From the NCBI GenBank assembly GCA_944323705.1, contig CALUTM010000016.1:1-37023 (forward strand): 37,023 nt of DNA. Reading direction: 5' to 3'. Numbering within the stretch: the stretch's first letter is position 1; every line of letters begins with the position of its first letter. Below, piece by piece: positions 4,674-35,593 of the stretch. The translations under genes were made by a program, and so were the position numbers. Origin of the DNA: Candidatus Gastranaerophilales bacterium (lineage in GTDB: Bacteria; Cyanobacteriota; Vampirovibrionia; Gastranaerophilales; Gastranaerophilaceae). The notes under the pieces were generated by a model. That model saw only the letters and a list, made by a program, of their open reading frames with translations. It did no database searches and was not told the origin of the DNA.

Positions 4674-6149
4674 TTAGCCGGAGAATGTTTTGTAAGAAGA
4701 TTCAATGTTGTCGTTGATAACTTTGTCAACAGCTTCGATTTCTGTTGTAATCTGAGTTCTTTCGTTATCAAGTCTTTGAAGTTTTAATTCAAGGTTTCTG
4801 TCCTCTTGTTGAATAATTTCAGTTTTAGCATTGATTTCTTGTTGAGCTTTATCATACAAGTACTGATCATATTCATACTGGTTATACGCATCCTGATATG
4901 CAGCTTCGTCCGTAACCTGTGTAGCAGCAAGTTCAATATCTCTATATGCGATTACTGCACCCGTTGTTGAATCAATAGTAGGTATACTTATTTGGGTAAT
5001 ACGTCCTTGAGAGTCAAATTGCAGCTTACATTGATCAACCTGCTCGGAAGTTGTATATGACCCGTTTGCAGTATATGAAAATGTTTGAGTAAATTTATCA
5101 GGACTCGTTACATCACTATCTAGAGCAAATTGTACAGTACGAACTCCGGTGTCGCTTGTTGTTATAAACACATAAAAATTATCTTCTGTGATACTGGAAT
5201 CTTGGGAACCGTATGTATTACGAATAGCTTGCTTGTAACCTTCCCAGTCGAACTCATCACCAAATTCTTTCACGGCATCGCTAAACTTATATGCCACTTT
5301 ACCTGCAATTGTTGTAGCACCGGCATTAGGATTATCAAGAGTACCCGTACCGTCTTTTGAAGCCAAGAAATACTGTGCATCATTGACTTGCTTGAGGGAA
5401 TACGTTCCGTCACCATTATCAGTTACATACATAGAGTTTGTTGATAGCTGTGCAACCGTGCCATTAATTGATACATAGTAATTTGATAAATCTGCAGCAT
5501 TAATTTTGCGTTCAACAGTTTCTGTATTTTCTCTTAAATGGCTGTAATTTTCCTTATCATCAGCAGCATCATATTCTTCTTTTGAAGCCTTTTTATAATA
5601 AGTCTTAGCTTCATCGAAAGCTTCAACATTTGCATAGCCTTCTGCTGTTAATTCCATATATTCTGCAGGGTCAGCACCTTCTTCTATCAGCTGAGCACCT
5701 GTTACCGAGGTACCGTTTATATAAATATCACCCTCCTGGTATTCACCTTCAACAGTGCCATAAAATCCTGTAGGTTGAACTGTTGTTGTATCTACAAATT
5801 CACCCTTGATTACATCACCTGCATTACCAACAATGGAAGAACCATAATTGGAAGTGATGGCTGCTCCTGTTGCAGTTTGCTGAATTTCGACGATATAATT
5901 TTCTCCAGACGGTTTAACAGTTCCAACAGAGAATGTAGTAGCCCCGTCTGTACCAGAGTATTCTATAGTAGTATAGTCTTGAGTTGAAGGAGGAGTCGGT
6001 ACAGTCATTGCAAGCAAGCTGTTATACAATGCGGTACATTGTTGAGATAAAATTGTTCTTTCCTGGTTAATCTGTTGTCCTTGATATTCAAGGTTAGACT
6101 GCCTTGCCTGTAAACTTAATAACCTTGCTTGTGATGCTGACATACCCAT
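4674..6149 (-). CDS. MGMSASQARLL-family protein with coiled-coil ends (putative late flagellar-class gene)
   Basis: A 491-aa protein of unknown function. From memory, proteins starting MGMSASQARLLSL recur in gut Melainabacteria; this was not checked. Residues 1-50 and about 415-491 are long amphipathic coiled-coil helices: Gln-rich at the N-terminus, and ELKLQRLDNERTQITTEI near the C-terminus. They flank a beta-rich, Thr/Asp/Gly-rich middle (about 60-410) with no signal peptide. Conserved helical ends around a variable middle resembles flagellin/FlgL-like axial proteins, but I see no direct homology. ATG 6149 has GGAGA at 8 nt. The key evidence is upstream: a sigma-28 promoter (6259-6285) and a leader element (6191-6232), both shared with the 694-aa gene. 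Its neighbour upstream is the giant FliD. Confidence 0.8.
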   Translation of the reverse strand: MGMSASQARLLSLQARQSNLEYQGQQINQERTILSQQCTALYNSLLAMTVPTPPSTQDYTTIEYSGTDGATTFSVGTVKPSGENYIVEIQQTATGAAITSNYGSSIVGNAGDVIKGEFVDTTTVQPTGFYGTVEGEYQEGDIYINGTSVTGAQLIEEGADPAEYMELTAEGYANVEAFDEAKTYYKKASKEEYDAADDKENYSHLRENTETVERKINAADLSNYYVSINGTVAQLSTNSMYVTDNGDGTYSLKQVNDAQYFLASKDGTGTLDNPNAGATTIAGKVAYKFSDAVKEFGDEFDWEGYKQAIRNTYGSQDSSITEDNFYVFITTSDTGVRTVQFALDSDVTSPDKFTQTFSYTANGSYTTSEQVDQCKLQFDSQGRITQISIPTIDSTTGAVIAYRDIELAATQVTDEAAYQDAYNQYEYDQYLYDKAQQEINAKTEIIQQEDRNLELKLQRLDNERTQITTEIEAVDKVINDNIESSYKTFSG

Positions 6150-6461: not shown

Positions 6462-9400
6462 TTAAGTAATCAAGAATGAACTGTACTGCTGCTGCATTTG
6501 TGCTATCAGCAAATCCATAGCCGAGAATTTAGCTTCCAACCTGGCTCGATACCTTTCGATATCTTCATTTGCTTTAACAATTTTCCTGTCAAGATTTTGT
6601 ATTTCACTTTGGTAGGAATTTTCAGTAACCGCAAAATATCCTGATACTGATTGCAGAGCGGATTCAACAAGGGTTTCTACTTTAGTAAAGATACCCGTAT
6701 TGTTAGCACCACCGATTAGCAGGTCTTTAACGGCGTCCTCATCAGCCTCGTAGGCTTCAATAAATTTATCTTTATCGAACGTCAGGGCAATAATACTTTC
6801 ATTTGATGTTGAGATATTATTTGCACTTGCAGAATCAACGGAAACACCTATGGCATCGAGGTTTCTGAACACTGTTGTTCCCATATCGGAACTTGTCATA
6901 AGGTTTCTAAGTTGATTTCTGATAAGTTTAAGCGTTGTTTCGCTGTGCAAATCTCCTTCTTTGGAGATAGCTTCATCAACGTTCTTCATCAATTCGTTGT
7001 AGGAATCTACTACATCTGATATCGCGTTTGCAAGGGTTTCCTTATCTCTTTCTACCGTAAGAGTAACTGCAGAGCCTTCTGTCAGCCCTTTCAGATTAAT
7101 CGTAAGCCCTTTTATTCTTGAGATATCGCTTGTAATTGTATTTGATGTTGATGTATAAGTAGTACCGTTAATCGAAACTCTTGCATTTTCACCTATGGTT
7201 TGAGAATCTACATTCATTCTTGTAACGTCGACAGAGCCGTCGGCATTCCATTCTGAGCTTGTAAAGCCCATAATATCGGTAAAGTTACTTGTACCTGCTT
7301 CGATATTTATTAAAGCCGAGCCTGTAGTGCGTGATTTTATAACGAATTTACCCTGAATATTATCCCAATAAGCCGTTGCATTTGCGGCATCATTAGAATT
7401 AATTTGAGAGATTATATCAGATAATCTGGTAGTACTTGTAATCGTAAACGTAGCGTCACCGACAACAAAAGTACCTTCCGTAATTTGTCCGTTTCTGAAC
7501 AATCCGGCATCTGTCAGGACAGAATCCGCGTTAACCCTGTAGAGTTCTCTGGAGCTGACAACGTTTCCGTTTTCGTCTTTTGCAATACCCGTAATAGCGG
7601 AGAAGTTGCTTGTATCGGTGGTTGAACCGATTTCTACCTGATTACCGTCTTTAGAATATATTGTCAGGTATCCGTTTTCGAATTTCAAATCCAAATCGGA
7701 GAATGCTGTTGCAAGTCTTGCCTTCAAATCATCAAATGTTTCGTTTGAATTAATTTGGATGGTGGCTTTTTCACCGTTTCTGTATACGGAGAGTGAGCCG
7801 TCCGAAATATTAAGCAGTCCCATTTGGGTCGAGCCGTCGGCATAATTTGCGACCGAGAGCGTCTTTTCTTCGATTGAAGTTGTAGTTGCTTTTACGGTAT
7901 CGTTACTCGATACATATCCGCCCAAATCATTGTGGTAAACCAGTCCTACGGTTGCGGGAAGGTTTGAAGTCGTACCGTCAGTATTAATCGTAAACGTATC
8001 ATATCCGCTTTGAATCATGATTTGACCGTCGGACAATGTTGCTTCGAGTCCCAAATCTCTGAATTTTTGTAACAATGAGCCTATTGTCTCGTCAGCCGTA
8101 ATCTTTATTGTACTGGTTTCTCCGTTTACGGTAACCGACAAATCACCTTCGGATAACAGGAGTCCGTTGTCAAAGTAGCTTAACAGAGTATCTTCTGTCG
8201 CGGCGGAATAAGTTGTTACGAGTTCGGAAGTTTGTTCAAGTCCCGTATATTCTTTGGTTTCCGTAATACCGTTTGTAAACAATTGTTCTACGACATTGGA
8301 AGCATTGGTTGTACTGTTGGATTTAGCGACGTATGAGTCACCTTTTCCGACAACAGACAGAACCGCACCGTTCGGACCTTCTACAAGACTGGTTTCGAGC
8401 CCGAAGCTTTTCAGTGTATCCATAAGTGAGCCGAGAGTTTCATCGGAGGAAATCAGGGCTGTGTATCTTACACCGTTATTATAGATATAGTATTCACCCG
8501 TTGTTACGCCGAGCTCGGAGAGAAGAGTATCTCTTGTTGCGGCGACATCCATTGTGGAGGTTTCAACGACATCTATTGTCGAACTCTTATAAGTATTTGT
8601 CGTTATCCAATCGTTAAGTCCTATACCAAGCAATTCCAATGCATTGGAGGCTTTGTCAGAACCTGTGTAATTTTGTAGCAGACTGTCTCCTGTATTCTTA
8701 ATAATAAGTTGTCCGTTTTCATTAATAACGGATTCGAAACCGTAGAGAGCCAATTCGTCCATAAGGGTTCCGACGGTATCATCCGCTGCAAGAGAGATAT
8801 TTGTCTGAACCCCGTCTTTAATAACCGTGATATATCCGTCCTCATAAACGCCTTCGTTTATGTCGGCAAGCTTAGTATCTCTGTTAATTGCTCTTACTTC
8901 ATCTTTAGGAATATCTAAACCGTTGGAGGTATAGATATTAACAAAATCCCATTCGGCAAACAGAGTTGACACGACATTTGAATTTTGTCCCGCAAGAGCA
9001 GAGGTTGCAAGATAAGTATTATTATAAGCACCAACGGAGATTGAGCCGTCTTCTGCAATATCTGCAATTAAGCCATATTTAGCCATTGTAGCCATAAAGT
9101 CATTTACGGTTGTATCCGCGGTAATTGTTTCTGTGTTTCTGACGCCGTTTGAGTAGATATAATAAGTACCCTCTGTAATACCGAGATTATTGCCGGCTTC
9201 ATCTGTCAATTCGCTCAATTTTGTTGAGCCGTTTACGACATTATTTGAATCTTCTTCATAGTTTAGGTTATCGCTTGTAGAATCATATCTTGTGGACCAA
9301 TTACCTGAAATCCCGATTTTTTCGAGAATGTTTGAGGCATTGGCGGTTGTAATACCGTCAGTTGTCAGGTAGCTGTCGTTATCTCCGTCAAAATACAGAC

Positions 9401-12400
9401 GCCCTTCCTGTGATATACCAACCGTAATTCCGTATTGAGACAATTTAGCGGCAAGAGTTTCCAGCGTATCATTCGTATCGATGTTTAGCGTGCTTCTTGT
9501 ACCGTCTTGATAAACATATATTTGTCCCGCCGTAATCCCTAAGTTTACGCCGGAAGCGTCCGTAAGTTCGGAGAGCCTGTCTGACATGGATATTCTGACG
9601 ATTCTTTCTTCCGTATCGCCGAGATGGTCACTTTTTTGAGTAATCTCACCGAGCGTCCAATCTTCGAGCCCGAATATTTCGAGAATATTAGAGCCGCCTG
9701 TAATTGTACTTAAGTAGCTTTCGCCAATACCCGATACGGAGAGTCTTCCCATATCGTCAATGGAGGTTGAGAATCCGTATTGAGCGAGAAGGTTTCTGAA
9801 ATCACCGACAGTCACTATGTTTGTGGTATCTATATTGATCGTATAATTAACACCCTGCTGAGTTATGACAATATTTCCGCCAGTAACTCCGAATTCGGAA
9901 AGCAGAGAGTTGTCAGTCATATTGGTAATTGTCATCTGAACGAGGTTTGTAGACACGTTATAAGTCGTATCGGTTCCGTACTCTTTTGTATAATTCCCCA
10001 TCAGGAATTCGCCCAGATAGCCTGAGATATCAAAATCATTCAGACTTGAGCTTGTAACACTGAATCTTCCCATCGCATCGATTGAGGCATTAATACCGTA
10101 AGAAGCAAGGGTGTCAATCACATCATAGAGAGATTGTGTCCTTGAGAATCTGAGCGTAACGTGTTGTTCACCGGCATCTGAATATGTATCCAATACCATT
10201 TCCACTGCATCGCTCGGCGGGAAAGTAAGCGTTCCGCCGCCTGACTGCATCAGGTTTTCCAGTGTGGTCGTTCCTGTTGCTGCGACAGTAACCGTATGTT
10301 TCAAGGTATCAGACGTTCTGTTTACGGTAACTGTTTGTACATTTTCGATAAGGTTGCTCAAATTCATTGCACTCAAGATATTTGAGCCGCCCGCAACTGC
10401 TTGCAGATAGACATTTCCGACACCTGTAATTGTAGCTTTTCCTTGAGAATCAATAGTTCCGATGAGTCCGTATTGTGAAATTTGTTTGAAGAATTCGTCG
10501 ACTGTTTGAGTCTCGTCAACCTGTATGGTTACGAACGTTCCGTCCGTTTTATGAACGACAAGATTACCGTTACCGTTATTAAATCCGTTTATGGATGAAA
10601 GTACGGTATCACCTCTTACGACAAGGTCTGTTTTTTCTTCCGTCAATTCGTTTGAATCAGTATTTACCCATCCGCCTCTTATTTCGGATATCCAGGAGTT
10701 ACCGTCTCCTGTTGTAATATTCAGGGCATTTTCAATATTATCGGACATCTCTTTAATATAACATCCGTTATTAGCCGTAAAAGTAATCTTTCCGTCCTGT
10801 ACATCGGCAGAGATTCCGTAACCTGCGATTGTAGAGATGATATCATCTACGGTTTTATCAGGTGTCACCGTGATAACATGTTCAGTACCATTTGTAACTA
10901 CGGTAATATACCCGTTTGAGGTTACACCCAAATCTTCAAAAGTCGTACTTGTTGTCATGGTTGTTTCTTTTTCTTCGGCGAACCTGTTAGAATCGGTATT
11001 GGAGTATGAATCTTCCTGAGATGTCGTATAATAAATACCTGCCAATTTAAACGCATCCTCAACCGCAGTAGAGACACTGGTTATATATGAGTTGTCGGAG
11101 GGAGAGCCTAAACTAATTTTGCCGTTATCTATTGAAGCGGAGATTCCTGCGGCACTTAATTTTGCGATAATATCGCTTATTGTATCGGAAGCCGCTATTG
11201 TTATTGTTCCGCTGCCATTTTCATTTTTGTAGGTTATAGAGCCGCTTGAATTATTACCGACAATCTCACCGTATGTAGTATCAAGATTTGCGGTAACAGT
11301 TCCCGAAACAGATAAGGTATTGGAATCTGTATTCACATAAGAGCTTGTGTATGTATAATCTCGCCCGGTTTGGAGATTCAATCCCAGCTGTAAACTACTA
11401 CTCATACCTTCAATATAAGCAGTTTGACTACCTATTAATACAAGCCTGCCTTGATCGTCTATATGCCCTTCTATCCCGTGAGCAGCCAGACGGGTGAGCA
11501 TTGAGCCGATTGTTTCGCTAACTGTTAGAGTAAGAGTTACATCATCTCCGTGGTTATTGAGATAAATATATCTGTTGGTTCCAAGCCCGTCATCAATTTC
11601 GCCTATTGTTGTATCTTCAGACAAGCTGACATTATTGTATGCATTAACTCCGCCGTCCTCAAGACTCGATAACCCGCCTAACAGGTAGTAATTTGAAGAA
11701 CTGCTGAAATTTAACTGACCGTTAACAAAAGCCGCATTACCGTTATTATTCAGGTCATAAACAACATCACCTATTGTATTTGAACCGTTATAGGTATATG
11801 AATCTACTACCCTCCCCCCGCTAGCATTTGTAACATATATCGTATAATCATCCGTAACTTTGAGGGATTTTGCAGAATAATCCCAGTAGTTAACAGCAAA
11901 CCCATAAACTGATGCATTAGTGGTGAAATATGTATCACGGGAGTTATTAATAGCCGAAACATTAACAACCCCCGAGGTTGTATCATACAAATCAGTAACA
12001 GTTTGTGATCTGTAAAAATTAAAAAGCAAGGCGACTTGATTGTTTGAATACCCTGATGTAGCATGAAGACCCGTACCAGTAACAAATAATGCTGACGCAT
12101 CGTTTGCCTGCCCGACAGTACCGCTCACGTAGTTATTCCTAATTGCTACTGAGACATTCTTTCCGTCTATTACCTGGAAATATCCCAAAATACCTGCACT
12201 GTATGCGACACCTCCAATAGAACCGCCATAAAAATCATCTGAGCCTAAATTTCCGTCAAACTGACAGTTTGAAATAGTAAGCAGCTTATTACCGGCAGAG
12301 CTGCGACTGTTTATACTGCCTACAATACCGCCCTGTATATATATTTGATCACCTGATGTCACAAGAGAACTGTAGGATTTTTCGACAAGAGATGTTACAT

Positions 12401-15400
12401 TTGAATAATTACTATTTGCAGCACCGACGATACCGCCTACGGTACAGCTATTACTGATAGTGATTGCGGTTGTTTTGGCATTACTGACCGTACCGTTAAT
12501 CAAAGAACCCACAACACCTCCTGTAACTCGATAAGTACCGGAAATATATCTACCATTATACCTTGCATTTGAGATAGTAATTCCCTCGATAGTAGAGTTT
12601 TCTGCAGTTGCAGCCAAGAAGCCTGCCACATGTCCCAGGCTTACACTATCAGATGTTATATTAATTGTAGCATTGTTTATGCGTACATTCTTAATCTCTG
12701 AATTGATAACATGACCAAACAATCCGTTATAATTATCGCTAGAAGAGCTAACATTAATTGTCATATTAGATATTGTATAACCTGCTCCGTCAAAATCTCC
12801 CCGGAAGCTTCGGGAGCCGGTACCAATACCTTTCCAGCTTCTACCCGACAAGTTGATATCATTAGTCAAGACAAATGTTTTTCCAGCCATCGACTGCCCG
12901 TTGTTTACAAGATTAGCCAAATACTCTAGCTCTGTGGCAGTACCGATACCGATAACCGTACCCGTAACTCCCGATGCCGTAATAGAACCGTCTATTTCAT
13001 ACTTGGTGGAAAGCAGAGTAGAAGAGGTATCTGCCGTAACAGTTTCGGTATAAGTGACAGCGGTCGAAGACGTGGCAGTCATTCCTATGGTCGTCGCTAC
13101 CGTTCCGATTCCTAGTTTATCCGCAAGAGGTCCATCTATATAGTAACCGTTATTCAAATCCCCGACAGATATAACCCCATTGTTCAACGATACATCGCCA
13201 TACGCACTTAAATTGCCCAACAGATGATCGAGAGTCGTATTACCGTAGTGTCCTATTGCTCTATAGCTTCCAATACTGCTTTCCATTTGGATGTGGTACT
13301 CCGTTAAAAGATACGGTGTAGGCATACTAACGCCTAGTCCCCATGCATTTGAATCCCAATTTGCGGTGGACAACTCCCGCAGCTCTTCAAAGCCGACAAA
13401 AGAAGTGTAGTTATTATTAACGGTAAAATAGGTGCTGCCCGGTCCGACCAGGCTCGATGTAACACCGGTAATTGCGTAAGTATCTGATATATTAACCGTA
13501 CCGCTTGATGCCGTACCTCCATAGAACTGACCTATGAGAGCTCCAACGTTAGTAATACTTCCCCGGGTTATCGATACCGTATCCGAGGTATAACTGTCCG
13601 ACAAATTGAAAGTTACATTAGAGCAGTTTGAAGCATACTTTGTTACATACCCTACCAATCCTCCGATATTACCGCCGGATGTTGTACGTGACGAACTGAG
13701 TGTAATATAATTAGAAGTACTGTTTGTAATATTAATAACACGTTCCGTACTTCCTTGAGAAAATTCAACATGCCCGACTATTCCGCCTAAAGAATAGGCT
13801 GCACCTCCTATTGATGTATAACTCACATAAGAACCGTTAAGAGTTGCACTATCAAGCATTTTCCCGGCTATACCGCCAACGTGTGTGGAAGTATTAGTCG
13901 AAGAAAGATTACCACCATAGACTTGAGCCCGATATACATTAGAATCCCCTGTGAGTATGCCTACAATACCGCCAACCTCTGTAGCTGAAGTTCTGGCCTG
14001 CTTTATCGTAATATTCCGTCCTTCAACATAAGCAATTGTGGAAGAAGCTCCAACACTGCCTGCAATAGCACCCATATAAGTTGCAGCGCTCACAGAACCA
14101 CTTGCTGCTATAGACACACTACTCAATGTAAGATTCTTTATGGTTCCGCCTTCTACCGCACCAAAGAGACCGCCGACGGTTGTACTTGCAGCAAGAGTTT
14201 GCCGTAACCCGCTGATTGTGTATCCGCCGCCGTCAAATACACCTGCAAAAGCATTGGCAGATGAGTCTCCGATTGATATCCATTTGGTCGATGACAAAGT
14301 TATACTATTTTGCAATATGAAAGTCTTGCCTTCCATATTATTGCCTGCGTTAACCTGACTTGCCAACCAACGCAGTTCTTGTTCGGTAGAAATCCCGATA
14401 ACATCACCCGTTACCCCTGTTGATGTTATTGTACCGTTAATAGGACCATATAAAAGTTCCTGCAATGTCGTACTGCCTGTTGCCAAAACCGTTTCCGTAT
14501 AAGTTATTGCCTCACTTGATGTCACCGTCTGAGCCGTCGTAACAGTTATAGTGCCTGTCTTTACGGTATCAATACCGAGTGCGGAGGCAACATTACCCGC
14601 AATGTAATTACCGTTGGTAGAATTGAGGGAAATAACACCGTCATTAACCGAGCCAACTATACCATACTGGGCAAGCTGATTGAATATGTCACCTATTGAG
14701 CTGTTCTGAGTAACGTTAATCTCTGCAACGAACTCTCCGGTTTTATCAAACACCGCCAAAGGTGACCCCAATCCTTCAACATTAGTCCCGACGATTCTGC
14801 CATCAGCTATAGCATCAGCAAAATCCCCGCTTTCATCAAGCATTCCTAGATAATATTGTTCTACAACATCTTTATCATAATATGCACTATTTATGGTATT
14901 TCCGCTTGCATTATTGGAAAACAAACCTCCTGCACCAGGTGCTCCATGAAAAGATGTATATAAATCGTTTACGTTTGAATTGATTATACTTGAAAATAAA
15001 GTTGCAGAAGAATTTAGTAGTGAACTTCCTTTTACATAAACATTATCAATTTTACCATTAGAAAAATTAGCTGCTAAAGCGTCAGCATTTGAGGCATATA
15101 AATCTACATTAATAACTGTATCTGTCAAAGTACTACCAATCAGAGAACAAGCGAGAGCCGAACTTGTACGTGAATTTACTAAACCACTAATATAAACATT
15201 GTTAATAGCTGTATTCCGCCCATATCCTACCAAAGAAGCCGCAGGGTTAGTACTATTACCCGTTATTGTAACATTATCAAACGCAATATTCTCTATTATT
15301 GCCCCTTCAGTCATATTGAATACTGCGTAATATCCCGTACCGGAAGAAGATTGAGAAACAGAAAGATTTGAAACCGTATGCCCGTTACCCTCCAAAGTAC

Positions 15401-18400
15401 CCCGGAAATTCGCAATCGAAACCCAATCATACCCGCTAGCATCAATATCGTTCATCAAAACAACTCTTTGTCCTGCTGTAGCATTTGCCAATGCATCGTG
15501 CAGTTCAGAGACATTCGTTACCGCAATATCAGTACCGGTAGGGGTCACCGAAGTAACCTGATTTATCAAGTGAGGATTTGTTATACCCAAATCCTTAAGC
15601 GTAGTGTCTAAAGTTGCCACAACCTCAGAAGTATAAGTTATTGCAATACTGGAGCTTACAGTCTGACCGATAGTAAATGTCGTATTTATTCCAGGCTCTA
15701 CTGTTATACCCAGCGAAGACAAATACAATTGGCTATCATCATTTGCACCTTCAATATAATTACCGCTCTCTGAATAAAAACTGATTACACCGTTTGTTAT
15801 ACTGCCCTGTATTCCGTAATTCTTTAAAGCATCAAACACATCACCAATCGTAGGAGCGTCATCATAGTTAAAACTTATATTACCTATAACTTCCTGTTCA
15901 GAATTATTTATATCTATACTGATTCCGGCTAACCCAAAAGCATCAAGAGTTGATAGCAAAGTATCTTCATTAGCAAAAACAGTGTCGGTATATGTTATAC
16001 CGACAGTAGAGCTCTGAGTTGTGTTAACAATTTCAGTTGTTGTAAATGTTGTTATACCCAGAGCCGCGGTTATACCATCCGCGATATACTTTCCTTCAGG
16101 AGAAGTTAGAGAAATAACACCGTCTGCAATAATGCCGTCTATGCCGTATGCCTTCAATCTGTCAAGAAAGTATCCGATAGTCGTTGTATTGCTTCCCGAT
16201 ACGTTACCTATATTATTCCCTTCGGAATCATAAATATTCACAAGAATTCGTCTTGCTCCGCTCGTTAGGATACCCAAATCGCCAAGTGTTGTATCCCTGT
16301 CAGCATAAACTTCTTCCTTTGTATACAAGGTATCACCCGTCGCAGAAACAGAAGAGGTATTCGTGATTGATTGCATTCCCAAAGCCTCAGCAACAGTACC
16401 AGTAAGAACACCGCCATTGATTGACAAACGTCCCGTATGATCCAAAGAAGCCGTCCCGCCGTTGGAATAAATCATGTTAATCAACTCATTTATGGTCGTT
16501 GATGCCGATACCGCAAGGTCTGTACCGTTAAAGTTCAAAGTATAGCCGCTCTGAACTTCGTTTGTCGTTCCGAGAGCAGAAATTATCGTTCCAAGAGTTG
16601 TTTCTCCCGTTACGGCGGCAGAAGTCGTAACTGTCATTACCGAACCTAAAACATAACTGCTCAGGCTAGAAGTCTCCAAGCCCATAGAAGTTTCCAAAGC
16701 CGCATTTTCTATATAACCGTTATTGACCGTAAGAAAACCATCCTGCAAAGAAGCGGTTACGTCAGAGGATGAGTTTATCCAATCCAACATATTCCCGATT
16801 GTGGTTCCCTCACCGACAACCGTCGTCCCGACAAGCGTACCGTCACTGTTATAAAGATTAACCGTCCGCTCCGCCTCACTCATGGAATCTAAAATTCCAT
16901 ATTCTGAAAGCATTGTATCCCTTGTAGCATCTATACTTACCGTGGTTTTGGAATACAACTCGTTTGAAGTTACGTACTTGCCTGAAATCGTCGTTGTAAG
17001 ATTCAAAACGTCCGCAAGATTTGAAGTTCCGCCCGTTAATACAGCATTCTCGATAGTGATTCTTGAATTATCACTGTCCCAACTTGAACCTATGCCTTCA
17101 TCGGCAAGTGCGTCCATCAAATCCTGAATGGTCATTGTCTGCGAAAGATTAACGGTTCTGCTCTCTCCCCTTACGTCAAATACTGCCGTACCGTCAGCCG
17201 CAAGTCCCAAATTCTCTAAAGTAGTCGTTAGTGAAGCATTAATCGTATTGGTGACAGTATGTCTCAACGCCTGAGTCTTTGAATAAGTAGAAGCAACCGT
17301 TATATGGTCAGTTGAAATGGTTCCCGAGCCGTATAAGCACTCCAACAAGTTCGTTCCCTGAATATAACGTGCCTCGGTCTCTCTAATCGTACCGTCGTTT
17401 ACAAGTGCCTGAACATCGGTATCGGAAAGTGTCTTAAAAGCACCGCCCGTTATCGTAAGAATTCCCGTTTCTTCATCAAGACTCGTTGCGATACCAAGAT
17501 TTCCCATGTCGGTCATAAAATCGCCGATTGTCTGACCCGAGTATATTTTTTCATAAAATTTATTACCGTCAGCATCAGTAACTTCAAGGTACCCTTCTTT
17601 TACCTTCAAATCATCCACAAGCCGCGTCTGCAAGGTTACGATTTCATGAACTTCCACCGTCTCGGTAAGCGGTTTACCGTTAACCATCGCGGTATAAGGT
17701 TCTCTTTGCAAGCCCAAAGCGTCTATGGCGTCAAAAGTTCCGCCCTCTATTGTTCCGCCCGCAATCTCGACCGTGCCATCCGAATTCAATGCCGCATACA
17801 ACCCCGCATTCGACATATCCTGCAAAAGTTCGCCCAAAGTCGTGGTTGTTCCGACAGTTATCGTCGTATACTCGTTATTTGAATTTTTTACTATAACTGT
17901 TTGACCGTCAGTAATATTCACCCCGTCGCCCAAATCTTTAAGCAAAGTAGATGAAGTCGCAGCAGTAACCTGGGTTACAACCGTTACATGGCTCAAATCC
18001 GCCGTGCTTTGGGTCTTTCCGTAAATATCCACAGCAAGTCCCAGAGCGTCCAATATATTAGTAGAACCCTCACTCGTTATCTCTGCGTCTGATATCGTAA
18101 ATACCCCCGTTGCATCAAGAACCGCATCAATATTATTAGCCTTCAAGTCTGCAATAAAAGAACCCAGGGTGCTCGTATCGGAAATTGTTATATCGTAGTC
18201 CGCATCGTTTGCATGAACCGTAATTACACCCGCCTGAACACCGAGTTCCGACATTAAAGTAGCTTCTGTAGCAGCAGAATAAACAGTATCCGTTTTAGAG
18301 GTCTGCAAGTTGTTACTCGTATACCCCTCATTTACCCCCTCAAGGTGTAATGCCTGAACAATCCCCGTTCCGTCGATATCGTTTATATCGCCGTCATCAA

Positions 18401-18977
18401 TGTTCATACTGAATACACCCGTCTCCTCATTATAACTTGCCTCTACCCCAATATTCTTGAGTTTTTCTATAAAAGTAGCAATCGTATCATTCTCTGTTAT
18501 GGTAATACCGCGTTCCACCCCGTTTACGTTAACGCCGATATTACCCGCATTCACACCTAAATTTATAAGCTTTGAGTCCATTGTAGCTGTCGTCGTCTGA
18601 ATAATCGTAGTCATATAACTGTAATTACTCATCGCAGAAGTCTCTGAGGCAAGCTTATCCACAAGTACGTTATACTCAGCCTCCTCAGCCTCTGGAGTGA
18701 CCGAAGCCGTTAAGATATCCAAATTCGAAGATGTAGCAAGGTTTTGTGCAAATAAATCCATTGAAGCAACACCGAATTTTGCGTCCGTAACCTTCTCTAT
18801 CATTGATCTGAACGAAGAGAAAAAGCTCTTTATGTTGCCCAAAGTTTCCTGTAGTGATAATACATTCTCTTTCTCTTCTTCAAGCGTCTCAACTTTAGCC
18901 TGCTTTAAGGCTACAAGTGATTCTACCCAAGAAGATGTATCTAATCCGGATGCCAATCCGCTGAATGATATAGTCAC
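6462..18977 (-). CDS. fliD: giant flagellar filament cap protein FliD (HAP2), 4171 aa
   Basis: FliD caps the growing flagellar filament, is exported by the flagellar type III system and often acts as the tip adhesin. The N-terminus (residues about 3-75, with SFSGLASGLDTSSWVESLVA and a following coiled coil) is the FliD_N domain. The last 200 or so residues, from GLTEGSAVTLTVERD through KFIEAYEADEDAVKDLL to the coiled coil ending MQQQYSSFLIT, are FliD_C. Ordinary FliD is about 450-700 aa. Here some 3,800 residues lie between, made of about 25 hook-IN-like repeats and three beta-helix inserts. The sequence is Thr/Ser/Asn/Gly-rich with few Cys. The reading frame is open throughout. The start is GTG at 18977 with AGGA 7 nt upstream. 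A vegetative promoter lies 134 nt upstream. No fliS, flagellin or other flagellar gene is in the window. Confidence 0.9.
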   Translation of the reverse strand: MTISFSGLASGLDTSSWVESLVALKQAKVETLEEEKENVLSLQETLGNIKSFFSSFRSMIEKVTDAKFGVASMDLFAQNLATSSNLDILTASVTPEAEEAEYNVLVDKLASETSAMSNYSYMTTIIQTTTATMDSKLINLGVNAGNIGVNVNGVERGITITENDTIATFIEKLKNIGVEASYNEETGVFSMNIDDGDINDIDGTGIVQALHLEGVNEGYTSNNLQTSKTDTVYSAATEATLMSELGVQAGVITVHANDADYDITISDTSTLGSFIADLKANNIDAVLDATGVFTISDAEITSEGSTNILDALGLAVDIYGKTQSTADLSHVTVVTQVTAATSSTLLKDLGDGVNITDGQTVIVKNSNNEYTTITVGTTTTLGELLQDMSNAGLYAALNSDGTVEIAGGTIEGGTFDAIDALGLQREPYTAMVNGKPLTETVEVHEIVTLQTRLVDDLKVKEGYLEVTDADGNKFYEKIYSGQTIGDFMTDMGNLGIATSLDEETGILTITGGAFKTLSDTDVQALVNDGTIRETEARYIQGTNLLECLYGSGTISTDHITVASTYSKTQALRHTVTNTINASLTTTLENLGLAADGTAVFDVRGESRTVNLSQTMTIQDLMDALADEGIGSSWDSDNSRITIENAVLTGGTSNLADVLNLTTTISGKYVTSNELYSKTTVSIDATRDTMLSEYGILDSMSEAERTVNLYNSDGTLVGTTVVGEGTTIGNMLDWINSSSDVTASLQDGFLTVNNGYIENAALETSMGLETSSLSSYVLGSVMTVTTSAAVTGETTLGTIISALGTTNEVQSGYTLNFNGTDLAVSASTTINELINMIYSNGGTASLDHTGRLSINGGVLTGTVAEALGMQSITNTSSVSATGDTLYTKEEVYADRDTTLGDLGILTSGARRILVNIYDSEGNNIGNVSGSNTTTIGYFLDRLKAYGIDGIIADGVISLTSPEGKYIADGITAALGITTFTTTEIVNTTQSSTVGITYTDTVFANEDTLLSTLDAFGLAGISIDINNSEQEVIGNISFNYDDAPTIGDVFDALKNYGIQGSITNGVISFYSESGNYIEGANDDSQLYLSSLGITVEPGINTTFTIGQTVSSSIAITYTSEVVATLDTTLKDLGITNPHLINQVTSVTPTGTDIAVTNVSELHDALANATAGQRVVLMNDIDASGYDWVSIANFRGTLEGNGHTVSNLSVSQSSSGTGYYAVFNMTEGAIIENIAFDNVTITGNSTNPAASLVGYGRNTAINNVYISGLVNSRTSSALACSLIGSTLTDTVINVDLYASNADALAANFSNGKIDNVYVKGSSLLNSSATLFSSIINSNVNDLYTSFHGAPGAGGLFSNNASGNTINSAYYDKDVVEQYYLGMLDESGDFADAIADGRIVGTNVEGLGSPLAVFDKTGEFVAEINVTQNSSIGDIFNQLAQYGIVGSVNDGVISLNSTNGNYIAGNVASALGIDTVKTGTITVTTAQTVTSSEAITYTETVLATGSTTLQELLYGPINGTITSTGVTGDVIGISTEQELRWLASQVNAGNNMEGKTFILQNSITLSSTKWISIGDSSANAFAGVFDGGGYTISGLRQTLAASTTVGGLFGAVEGGTIKNLTLSSVSIAASGSVSAATYMGAIAGSVGASSTIAYVEGRNITIKQARTSATEVGGIVGILTGDSNVYRAQVYGGNLSSTNTSTHVGGIAGKMLDSATLNGSYVSYTSIGGAAYSLGGIVGHVEFSQGSTERVINITNSTSNYITLSSSRTTSGGNIGGLVGYVTKYASNCSNVTFNLSDSYTSDTVSITRGSITNVGALIGQFYGGTASSGTVNISDTYAITGVTSSLVGPGSTYFTVNNNYTSFVGFEELRELSTANWDSNAWGLGVSMPTPYLLTEYHIQMESSIGSYRAIGHYGNTTLDHLLGNLSAYGDVSLNNGVISVGDLNNGYYIDGPLADKLGIGTVATTIGMTATSSTAVTYTETVTADTSSTLLSTKYEIDGSITASGVTGTVIGIGTATELEYLANLVNNGQSMAGKTFVLTNDINLSGRSWKGIGTGSRSFRGDFDGAGYTISNMTINVSSSSDNYNGLFGHVINSEIKNVRINNATINITSDSVSLGHVAGFLAATAENSTIEGITISNARYNGRYISGTYRVTGGVVGSLINGTVSNAKTTAITISNSCTVGGIVGAANSNYSNVTSLVEKSYSSLVTSGDQIYIQGGIVGSINSRSSAGNKLLTISNCQFDGNLGSDDFYGGSIGGVAYSAGILGYFQVIDGKNVSVAIRNNYVSGTVGQANDASALFVTGTGLHATSGYSNNQVALLFNFYRSQTVTDLYDTTSGVVNVSAINNSRDTYFTTNASVYGFAVNYWDYSAKSLKVTDDYTIYVTNASGGRVVDSYTYNGSNTIGDVVYDLNNNGNAAFVNGQLNFSSSSNYYLLGGLSSLEDGGVNAYNNVSLSEDTTIGEIDDGLGTNRYIYLNNHGDDVTLTLTVSETIGSMLTRLAAHGIEGHIDDQGRLVLIGSQTAYIEGMSSSLQLGLNLQTGRDYTYTSSYVNTDSNTLSVSGTVTANLDTTYGEIVGNNSSGSITYKNENGSGTITIAASDTISDIIAKLSAAGISASIDNGKISLGSPSDNSYITSVSTAVEDAFKLAGIYYTTSQEDSYSNTDSNRFAEEKETTMTTSTTFEDLGVTSNGYITVVTNGTEHVITVTPDKTVDDIISTIAGYGISADVQDGKITFTANNGCYIKEMSDNIENALNITTGDGNSWISEIRGGWVNTDSNELTEEKTDLVVRGDTVLSSINGFNNGNGNLVVHKTDGTFVTIQVDETQTVDEFFKQISQYGLIGTIDSQGKATITGVGNVYLQAVAGGSNILSAMNLSNLIENVQTVTVNRTSDTLKHTVTVAATGTTTLENLMQSGGGTLTFPPSDAVEMVLDTYSDAGEQHVTLRFSRTQSLYDVIDTLASYGINASIDAMGRFSVTSSSLNDFDISGYLGEFLMGNYTKEYGTDTTYNVSTNLVQMTITNMTDNSLLSEFGVTGGNIVITQQGVNYTINIDTTNIVTVGDFRNLLAQYGFSTSIDDMGRLSVSGIGESYLSTITGGSNILEIFGLEDWTLGEITQKSDHLGDTEERIVRISMSDRLSELTDASGVNLGITAGQIYVYQDGTRSTLNIDTNDTLETLAAKLSQYGITVGISQEGRLYFDGDNDSYLTTDGITTANASNILEKIGISGNWSTRYDSTSDNLNYEEDSNNVVNGSTKLSELTDEAGNNLGITEGTYYIYSNGVRNTETITADTTVNDFMATMAKYGLIADIAEDGSISVGAYNNTYLATSALAGQNSNVVSTLFAEWDFVNIYTSNGLDIPKDEVRAINRDTKLADINEGVYEDGYITVIKDGVQTNISLAADDTVGTLMDELALYGFESVINENGQLIIKNTGDSLLQNYTGSDKASNALELLGIGLNDWITTNTYKSSTIDVVETSTMDVAATRDTLLSELGVTTGEYYIYNNGVRYTALISSDETLGSLMDTLKSFGLETSLVEGPNGAVLSVVGKGDSYVAKSNSTTNASNVVEQLFTNGITETKEYTGLEQTSELVTTYSAATEDTLLSYFDNGLLLSEGDLSVTVNGETSTIKITADETIGSLLQKFRDLGLEATLSDGQIMIQSGYDTFTINTDGTTSNLPATVGLVYHNDLGGYVSSNDTVKATTTSIEEKTLSVANYADGSTQMGLLNISDGSLSVYRNGEKATIQINSNETFDDLKARLATAFSDLDLKFENGYLTIYSKDGNQVEIGSTTDTSNFSAITGIAKDENGNVVSSRELYRVNADSVLTDAGLFRNGQITEGTFVVGDATFTITSTTRLSDIISQINSNDAANATAYWDNIQGKFVIKSRTTGSALINIEAGTSNFTDIMGFTSSEWNADGSVDVTRMNVDSQTIGENARVSINGTTYTSTSNTITSDISRIKGLTINLKGLTEGSAVTLTVERDKETLANAISDVVDSYNELMKNVDEAISKEGDLHSETTLKLIRNQLRNLMTSSDMGTTVFRNLDAIGVSVDSASANNISTSNESIIALTFDKDKFIEAYEADEDAVKDLLIGGANNTGIFTKVETLVESALQSVSGYFAVTENSYQSEIQNLDRKIVKANEDIERYRARLEAKFSAMDLLIAQMQQQYSSFLIT
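11850..12965 (-). other. beta-helix / GLUG insert 3 in FliD (residues about 2005-2376)
   Basis: Paralogous to insert 2. It opens VIGIGTATELEYLANLVN, then GKTFVLTNDINLSGRSWKGIG and FDGAGYTISNM, with GLUG turns NGLFGHV, TGGVVGSL, VGGIVGAA and QGGIVGSI. The same flanking phrase (GSIT(S/A)SGVTG) precedes inserts 2 and 3, suggesting duplication. Confidence 0.7.
13320..14410 (-). other. beta-helix / GLUG insert 2 in FliD (residues about 1523-1886)
   Basis: It opens VIGISTEQELRWLASQVN, then GKTFILQNSITLSSTKWISIG and FDGGGYTISGL. Repeated GLUG-type turns follow (VGGLFGAV, VGGIVGIL, VGGIAGKM, LGGIVGHV, IGGLVGYV). Such modules occur in large surface adhesins. Confidence 0.7.
14770..15510 (-). other. 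beta-helix insert 1 in FliD (residues about 1155-1405)
   Basis: It opens with the VSELHDALANA and RVVLMNDIDASGYDW pattern, then GTLEGNGHTVSNL, then short Asn/Ser-rich strands of right-handed beta-helix type. It interrupts one hook-IN unit; the next TIGD-type strand resumes at about 14690. Confidence 0.6.
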
Positions 18978-19117: not shown

Positions 19118-19145
19118 ATTATAGCATATATTTATAAAACTTCAA
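19118..19145 (-). promoter_or_regulatory. fliD promoter
   Basis: On the minus strand, TTGAAG (19140-19145), 16 bp, then TGC-TATAAT (-10 at 19118-19123), an extended -10 of vegetative type. The predicted start near 19111 gives a leader of about 134 nt. No sigma-28-type box was found in this gap. Confidence 0.65.
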
Positions 19146-34759: not shown

Positions 34760-34788
34760 TTGCTAAACTGTTACTATCGTGTTAATAT
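34760..34788 (+). promoter_or_regulatory. promoter of the sigma factor operon, probably leaderless
   Basis: TTGCTA (34760-34765), 17 bp, TAATAT (34783-34788), then seven bases to ATG 34796. The -35 overlaps the alternative TTG start, which argues against that start. Confidence 0.5.
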
Positions 34789-34795
34789 ATGTGTT

Positions 34796-35593
34796 ATGGT
34801 CACAAGAAAGAATGAGCAGAAGACATACGAGTTTGTAGACTGTTGGCTTGAAGAATACCACTCGTCATCAGATAAATATAAAAGGGCGAAAGCAAAGGCA
34901 TTAATAGTCACCAGAATGCTTCCGATTATCAAGCGTATTGCAAGAACAATCGCAAGACGTGCAACCGACCCGATTGAAGATTTGGTACAAGCAGGGTCCA
35001 TAGGACTTTTGAAGGCTATTGAGAGCTATTCAAGAGAGGTTAATGATAATTTCAAGATATATGCAGGTTACTTAATAATCGGAGAAATGAAACACTACTT
35101 AAGGGATAAATTGAATACGATAAGAGTTCCCAGGCATATTCAGGAATTATCCTGCCGTATAAATAACTTTACCAAAACTCTTACAACGGAAGAGTTGAAC
35201 GAGTTAACAAATGATGATGTGGCTGAAGCTCTTAAAATTTCAAAAAGAGACGTGGATTTTGTATTGCAGGCAGACAGAAGAAAGTCCACTCTTTCGCTTG
35301 AAGAAATTTACGGTACAGACTCCGATAATAATTTAAGTTATGAAGAAGTTATAACGGATGATAACTATAAAGAACTCCGGGATTTGGAAGATATGAAGAT
35401 TATTTTTCGGGAGGTCATAGAAAAACTGCCGACGGAATACAAAGAAGCAGTGGAACTTTATTATTACAAAGATATGAGCAAAAAAGAAATTGCCGAATAT
35501 TTAAACATGACACAAATGCAAGTTTCCAGGAAAATGAAAAAAGCGTTCAGTATGCTATACAAAATGCTTGCCGATACTACAATAGAGGTGTAG
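34796..35593 (+). CDS. group 3 sigma-70-family RNA polymerase sigma factor (SigF/SigB/FliA-like)
   Basis: Alternative sigma factor of 265 aa. Region 2 covers about 35-105: DPIEDLVQAGSIGLLKAIESY, then FKIYAGYLIIGEMKHYLRDK. Region 3 runs about 109-165, from IRVPRHIQELSCRI. Region 4 (about 200-255) has the HTH YKDMSKKEIAEYLNMTQMQVSRKMKKA. There is no region 1.1. GEMKHYLRDK...IRVPR resembles cyanobacterial SigF and Firmicute SigB/F/G more than enterobacterial FliA. In cyanobacteria SigF controls pilus and motility genes. It is joined directly (TAG then ATG) to a prepilin peptidase gene. It is the only sigma factor here and a candidate reader of the sigma-28-type promoters. ATG 34796 is chosen because a promoter overlaps the TTG at 34760. 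Confidence 0.88.
   Translation: MVTRKNEQKTYEFVDCWLEEYHSSSDKYKRAKAKALIVTRMLPIIKRIARTIARRATDPIEDLVQAGSIGLLKAIESYSREVNDNFKIYAGYLIIGEMKHYLRDKLNTIRVPRHIQELSCRINNFTKTLTTEELNELTNDDVAEALKISKRDVDFVLQADRRKSTLSLEEIYGTDSDNNLSYEEVITDDNYKELRDLEDMKIIFREVIEKLPTEYKEAVELYYYKDMSKKEIAEYLNMTQMQVSRKMKKAFSMLYKMLADTTIEV

Follow-up and report, generated by a model that had tools for sequence, protein, structure and literature searches.

A 4171-residue FliD-like protein with about 26 IN-like units and central beta-helix inserts in Candidatus Gastranaerophilales

The flagellar cap protein FliD is customarily about 400-700 aa long, a length that is customary and not defining, and the termini of flagellar proteins are conserved as a rule. 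The head of FliD can be removed or exchanged, even for a larger one, and it is the legs that decide capping (PMC8533109). FliD travels through the export channel in unfolded form, and it is adhesive in P. aeruginosa PAK (PMC8306008). Among described cases, the closest to the protein reported here are the giant flagellins (PMC6248924) and laboratory FliD chimeras (PMC8533109). The initial annotation of this locus knew of no FliD of such size, and we likewise found none of comparable size in the open-access literature, including that on FliD and on Melainabacteria.

Domain architecture of the giant FliD

The window analyzed here, a stretch of 37,023 nucleotides from a Candidatus Gastranaerophilales genome, carries a single open frame that runs uninterrupted for 12.5 kb from position 18977 to position 6462 on the minus strand, to which the feature has been corrected. 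The frame opens with a GTG codon that is common to the nearest orthologue (L049) and comprises 4171 codons. The length first proposed for the product (4171 aa) is hence borne out, and it lies outside the 400-700 aa FliD range and is about seven times that of the normal FliD (578 aa) encoded on a different contig of the same genome. The reading of both ends as FliD domains was also upheld. Pfam places FliD_N, the N-terminal leg, at residues 10-111 (18645..18950, minus strand; E 1.6e-13), with 51.6 bits against a curated cut-off of 24.8, and FliD_C, the C-terminal leg, at residues 3929-4163 (6489..7193, minus strand; E 1.2e-35), within the last 250 residues and with 123.5 bits against a cut-off of 25.4. 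The FliD_C leg additionally matches solved FliD structures at E 1e-18. The giant falls below the NCBIfam FliD equivalog cut-offs of 444-469 bits (74.8 bits), as does the normal FliD of the same genome (127.5 bits), and Pfam detects neither Flagellin_N nor Flagellin_C anywhere along it. A phage origin was considered and rejected, since PHROGs returned no match for the FliD ends. The two FliDs of the genome are 56% identical over the first 115 residues and 44% identical over the FliD_C leg. The giant is a second, duplicated FliD that accompanies the normal one, and not the sole FliD of its genome.

Between the legs, a hidden Markov model iterated from one internal unit recognizes 25 IN-like units at E<0.01, or 26-27 when interrupted ones are counted, with a median spacing of 113 aa across all giants. 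Nine of these units form an N-side array at residues 131-1083 (15729..18587, minus strand), and 13 form a C-side array at residues 2454-3903 (7269..11618, minus strand), the last of which is the nearest to Pfam Flagellin_IN. The normal FliD of the same genome contains two homologous units, and the units are confined in this genome to the two FliD genes. As a guard against circularity, a control model was trained exclusively on residues 126-3700 of the giant; it matches 15/15 normal FliDs (E 4e-17 to 1e-3), but no hit came from 134 control ORFs or 200 shuffles. Together with the unit count, this supports the original description of a giant FliD built from some 25 hook-IN-like repeats. A Pfam search for the domains first suggested as a check gave a divided answer: it recovers FliD_N and FliD_C, but single units stay under the Flagellin_IN (PF07196) cut-off, the last unit reaching 21.9 bits against 22.7 (22.6 bits for the normal FliD). 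In the genome search the last unit alone scores (E 4.5e-4), the remaining ones being weaker, and it is through the iterated profile, below the Pfam cut-off, that the units are related to the Flagellin_IN type.

An AlphaFold model of a 1200-aa relative presents the better units as strand-strand-helix-strand-strand domains (pLDDT 80-97), in agreement with the beta-grasp domain that has been assigned to FliD, FlgK and FlgL (PMC1949818). The leg helices are placed at residues 15-64 and 1143-1199, the N-terminal one with low confidence, and the model leaves the linkers, some of the units and the overall arrangement uncertain (pTM 0.37). The best 18 structural matches of this model are all FliDs.

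The idea that a single repeated unit extends through the whole middle holds for both arrays, but not for residues ~1160-2370, which are mostly occupied by beta-helix inserts. This hypervariable central part (residues 1121-2434; 11676..15617, minus strand) contains three IN units, each broken by a long insert. The first insert (residues 1158-1412; 14742..15506, minus strand) is M26_N/GLUG-like, with both GLUG and M26_N marginal in Pfam. The second (residues ~1552-1860; 13398..14324, minus strand) is a parallel beta-helix, and the third (residues ~2025-2365; 11883..12905, minus strand) has no Pfam match of its own and aligns with the second. AlphaFold models residues 1480-1985 as a confident parallel beta-helix (pLDDT 89.4, pTM 0.90), with strands and helices from the IN unit that it interrupts on either side. 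For the central insert, profile and fold searches both point to the IgA1-protease beta-helix; besides IgA1 proteases, the fold search returned generic beta-helix enzymes only. The HExxH zinc-protease motif is absent from all 4171 residues, so that calling the insert a protease would be unjustified, and this reading was rejected: the likeness concerns the beta-helix alone. The central inserts are classed as GLUG/IgA1-protease-type beta-helices placed within IN units.

Sequence constraint, distribution and genomic context

Aligned with a 4650-aa orthologue, the giant is 84-94% identical toward its ends, and identity falls to 31-38% in the least conserved stretches of the center, where the large length differences also lie. 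At the ends, constraint on the protein is strong (pN 0.04-0.06); pN is used here without a dN/dS figure because synonymous sites are saturated. Conserved ends and a diverged middle recur in 6/7 giant pairs, the exception being small tandem neighbors, and none of the 29 large inserts in eight complete giants comes within fewer than four junctions of an end, against an expectation of 8.9 (p < 1e-4). The conservation gradient runs through several units past the legs, and unit positions are kept at both ends among orthologous giants.

The survey of relatives was carried out on sampled genomes of this phylum, all of them metagenome-assembled genomes (MAGs), and the relatives are Candidatus Gastranaerophilales/Melainabacteria, mostly from gut assemblies. 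Giants are not unique to this genome: they are common in the genus, and far longer ones exist. An order-wide survey finds a FliD_C ORF of more than 1000 aa in 17 of the 21 good genomes of the genus, 16 of which also carry a normal FliD. The giant is missing from the other four, which indicates that it is dispensable for flagellation. Complete giants of the genus range from 1,200 to 6,131 aa, many others being cut by contig ends, so that their lengths are lower bounds. In sister genera, a FliD of 6,589 aa shows both end domains, FliD_N and FliD_C, clearly. A more divergent set from sister genera attains up to 11,051 aa; its FliD_C is recognized (E 9e-10), its FliD_N is not. Other families of the phylum present only ordinary FliDs in the sampled genomes, the largest having 736 aa. 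A tree of C-terminal parts sets the giants apart from the normal FliDs of the genus (13 normals, 100/100) and is compatible with a single origin of the giants of the genus, without proving one.

Several arrangements were observed in the course of this survey. Two rumen-type genomes harbor tandem giant pairs of ~4,900-5,400 and 1,300-1,400 aa (L055/L056, G005:C12; L059/L060, G013:C36), and a second large FliD-like frame starts head to head alongside the 11,051-aa FliD_C protein (L162/L163, G200:C5). Elsewhere, a gene adjoining a 7,267-aa FliD_C protein (L173:893-3601, minus strand, G205:C6) encodes RTX-like GGxGxD repeats/DUF3060 followed by a flagellin C-terminal domain.

The giant gene sits among housekeeping genes, outside any flagellar cluster, and the 4650-aa orthologue, from another MAG, shares with it both the upstream neighbors (rfbA, thioredoxin and DnaJ) and the layout. 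Upstream of the gene, a sigma-70-like promoter (TTGAAG - 16 bp - TATAAT; 19118..19145, minus strand) was read by eye. No sigma-28 site was found upstream of giants, nor any link of the gene to the flagellar regulon. A near-perfect sigma-28 site (TAAA-N15-GCCGATAT) precedes the normal fliD in four species (L006, L008, L014 and L015), and none was found upstream of normal fliD in the window's own genome. The window also encodes a SigB/SigF/FliA-type sigma factor (34760-35593, plus strand) that passes, alone among the curated cut-offs, the general sigma-70 one. A further gene (4674-6149, minus strand) codes for a protein of 491 aa (MGMSASQARLL...) that matches nothing in Pfam or NCBIfam and has at least six relatives in its own genome. 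Members of this 491-aa family adjoin giant FliDs in three loci (L047, L049 and L164) and lie near flagellins in another (L079), a placement that may possibly point to a flagellar exported family of a new kind.

The genome of the window encodes FlhA, FlhB, FliP, FlgK, flagellins, FliS and a FliF-like protein, and has eight flagellin-type genes besides FlgL. Nearly all genomes of the genus carry two FlhA-type export gates; the second adjoins a FliF-like gene, and a third protein of ~495 aa matches the C-terminal half of FlhA only (FlhA-type loci L076, G000:C22; L077, G000:C39; and G000:C10:37381-38424). A coupling of the giant to the second export gate was rejected, since two near-full-length FlhA-type copies occur with or without the giant.

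Proposed role and alternative explanations

The giant is best read as a duplicated FliD that has kept its legs and would carry a long arm whose tip is hypervariable and beta-helical, probably serving at the end of the filament as an adhesin exported by the flagellum, a reading to which we assign a probability of roughly 0.55. The chain would leave the cell unfolded by way of the flagellar type III channel, the legs would join or replace the normal FliD in the filament-end cap, and the IN units would form an arm that leaves the cap and then comes back to it. Given that both ends of the FliD chain sit in the cap, conserved ends and a variable middle fit an arm with a distal tip. The middle of the giant would thus be the distal tip of the arm, where the beta-helical, fast-changing center could contact gut surfaces, mucus, food particles or other cells. 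Such an appendage fits the work reporting that the legs suffice and the head is replaceable (PMC8533109). Several observations speak against the tip arm: no sigma-28 promoter was found before the giants, the gene lies among housekeeping genes, four of 21 good genomes of the genus have no giant, the unit numbers are unequal on the two sides, which disfavors a model in which outgoing and returning arms simply pair, the global arrangement of the model is uncertain at a pTM of 0.37, and all the genomes are MAGs.

The same legs, being complete, would also allow the giant alone to cap a subset of filaments, perhaps the ones built from the product of one of the eight flagellin-type genes, with a head that is structural or protective and not adhesive. 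The fast-changing center and its beta-helix inserts suggest a contact surface over a structural part, and we regard this explanation as unlikely. It is somewhat more doubtful still that the FliD signals merely provide an exit via the flagellar channel, a known secretion route (PMC8306008), for a product that is released into the medium or matrix and does not stay at a cap, given that no part of the giant is more conserved than its two legs, which are required for capping alone. The several-fold variation in length between species and the absence of the gene from some genomes would suit a dispensable gene, or a slippage-driven repeat expansion without a function of its own. The IN-like units of the giant, however, are mutually only ~15-43% identical, and hence old and not the products of recent slippage; pN is low outside the center and unit positions are kept at both ends among orthologues, which makes this explanation highly improbable. 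Finally, joined or collapsed repeats in the assembly deserve next to no credence, although the genomes are MAGs and several giants stop at contig ends, because the units are too dissimilar for collapse, the 12.5-kb frame is unbroken, an independent orthologue has the same layout and neighbors, and the ends are strongly constrained at the protein level.

If the adhesive-arm reading is extended to relatives of up to ~11,000 residues, the tip of the flagellum may bear long, fast-changing arms. We tentatively propose, at slightly under even odds, a giant filament-tip family reaching such lengths, in which the duplicated cap would provide the anchor, the flagellar channel the secretion route, and the chain between the legs a hypervariable adhesive arm. 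If true, this would define a class of giant adhesins delivered by the flagellum, with chains that rank among the longest yet proposed to pass a type III export channel, and would imply that the flagellar cap can be converted into a giant surface-contact device. The limit of the export channel would come into question, with one unfolded chain of 4,000-11,000 residues against ~500 for an ordinary flagellin, and the giants would constitute a natural test of the claim that the legs alone matter for FliD capping. They could also be a basis for the contact of flagellated, uncultured gut Gastranaerophilales with their surroundings.

Comparison with known systems

The giant shares both legs, N- and C-terminal, and the type of its IN units with the FliD/HAP2 cap (PDB 5h5v, 6sih and 9gnz), but it has 4171 residues and ~26 units against 578 residues and two units in the FliD of the same genome, carries beta-helix inserts and coexists with a normal FliD. 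Giant flagellins (>1000 aa; PMC6248924) are likewise exported and combine a hugely enlarged exposed middle with conserved ends, yet they are flagellins that make up the whole filament, whereas the giant FliD is a cap protein without a flagellin domain. In a similar vein, the P. aeruginosa FliD chimeras (PMC8533109) keep their legs and have the head exchanged, also for a larger one, but they are laboratory-made and their heads span a few hundred residues. The beta-helix and GLUG domains of IgA1 proteases (PDB 6xja and 3n6z) correspond in profile and fold to the central insert, which differs from the M26 enzyme in the absence of the protease motif and in its position within an IN unit of a FliD. 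As in SiiE and the 51-domain Mobiluncus adhesin (PMC6272769, PMC10619420), a very long chain of small repeated domains is presumed to hold the binding part off the cell; those adhesins rely on other secretion routes and anchors, whereas the giant has the legs of FliD.
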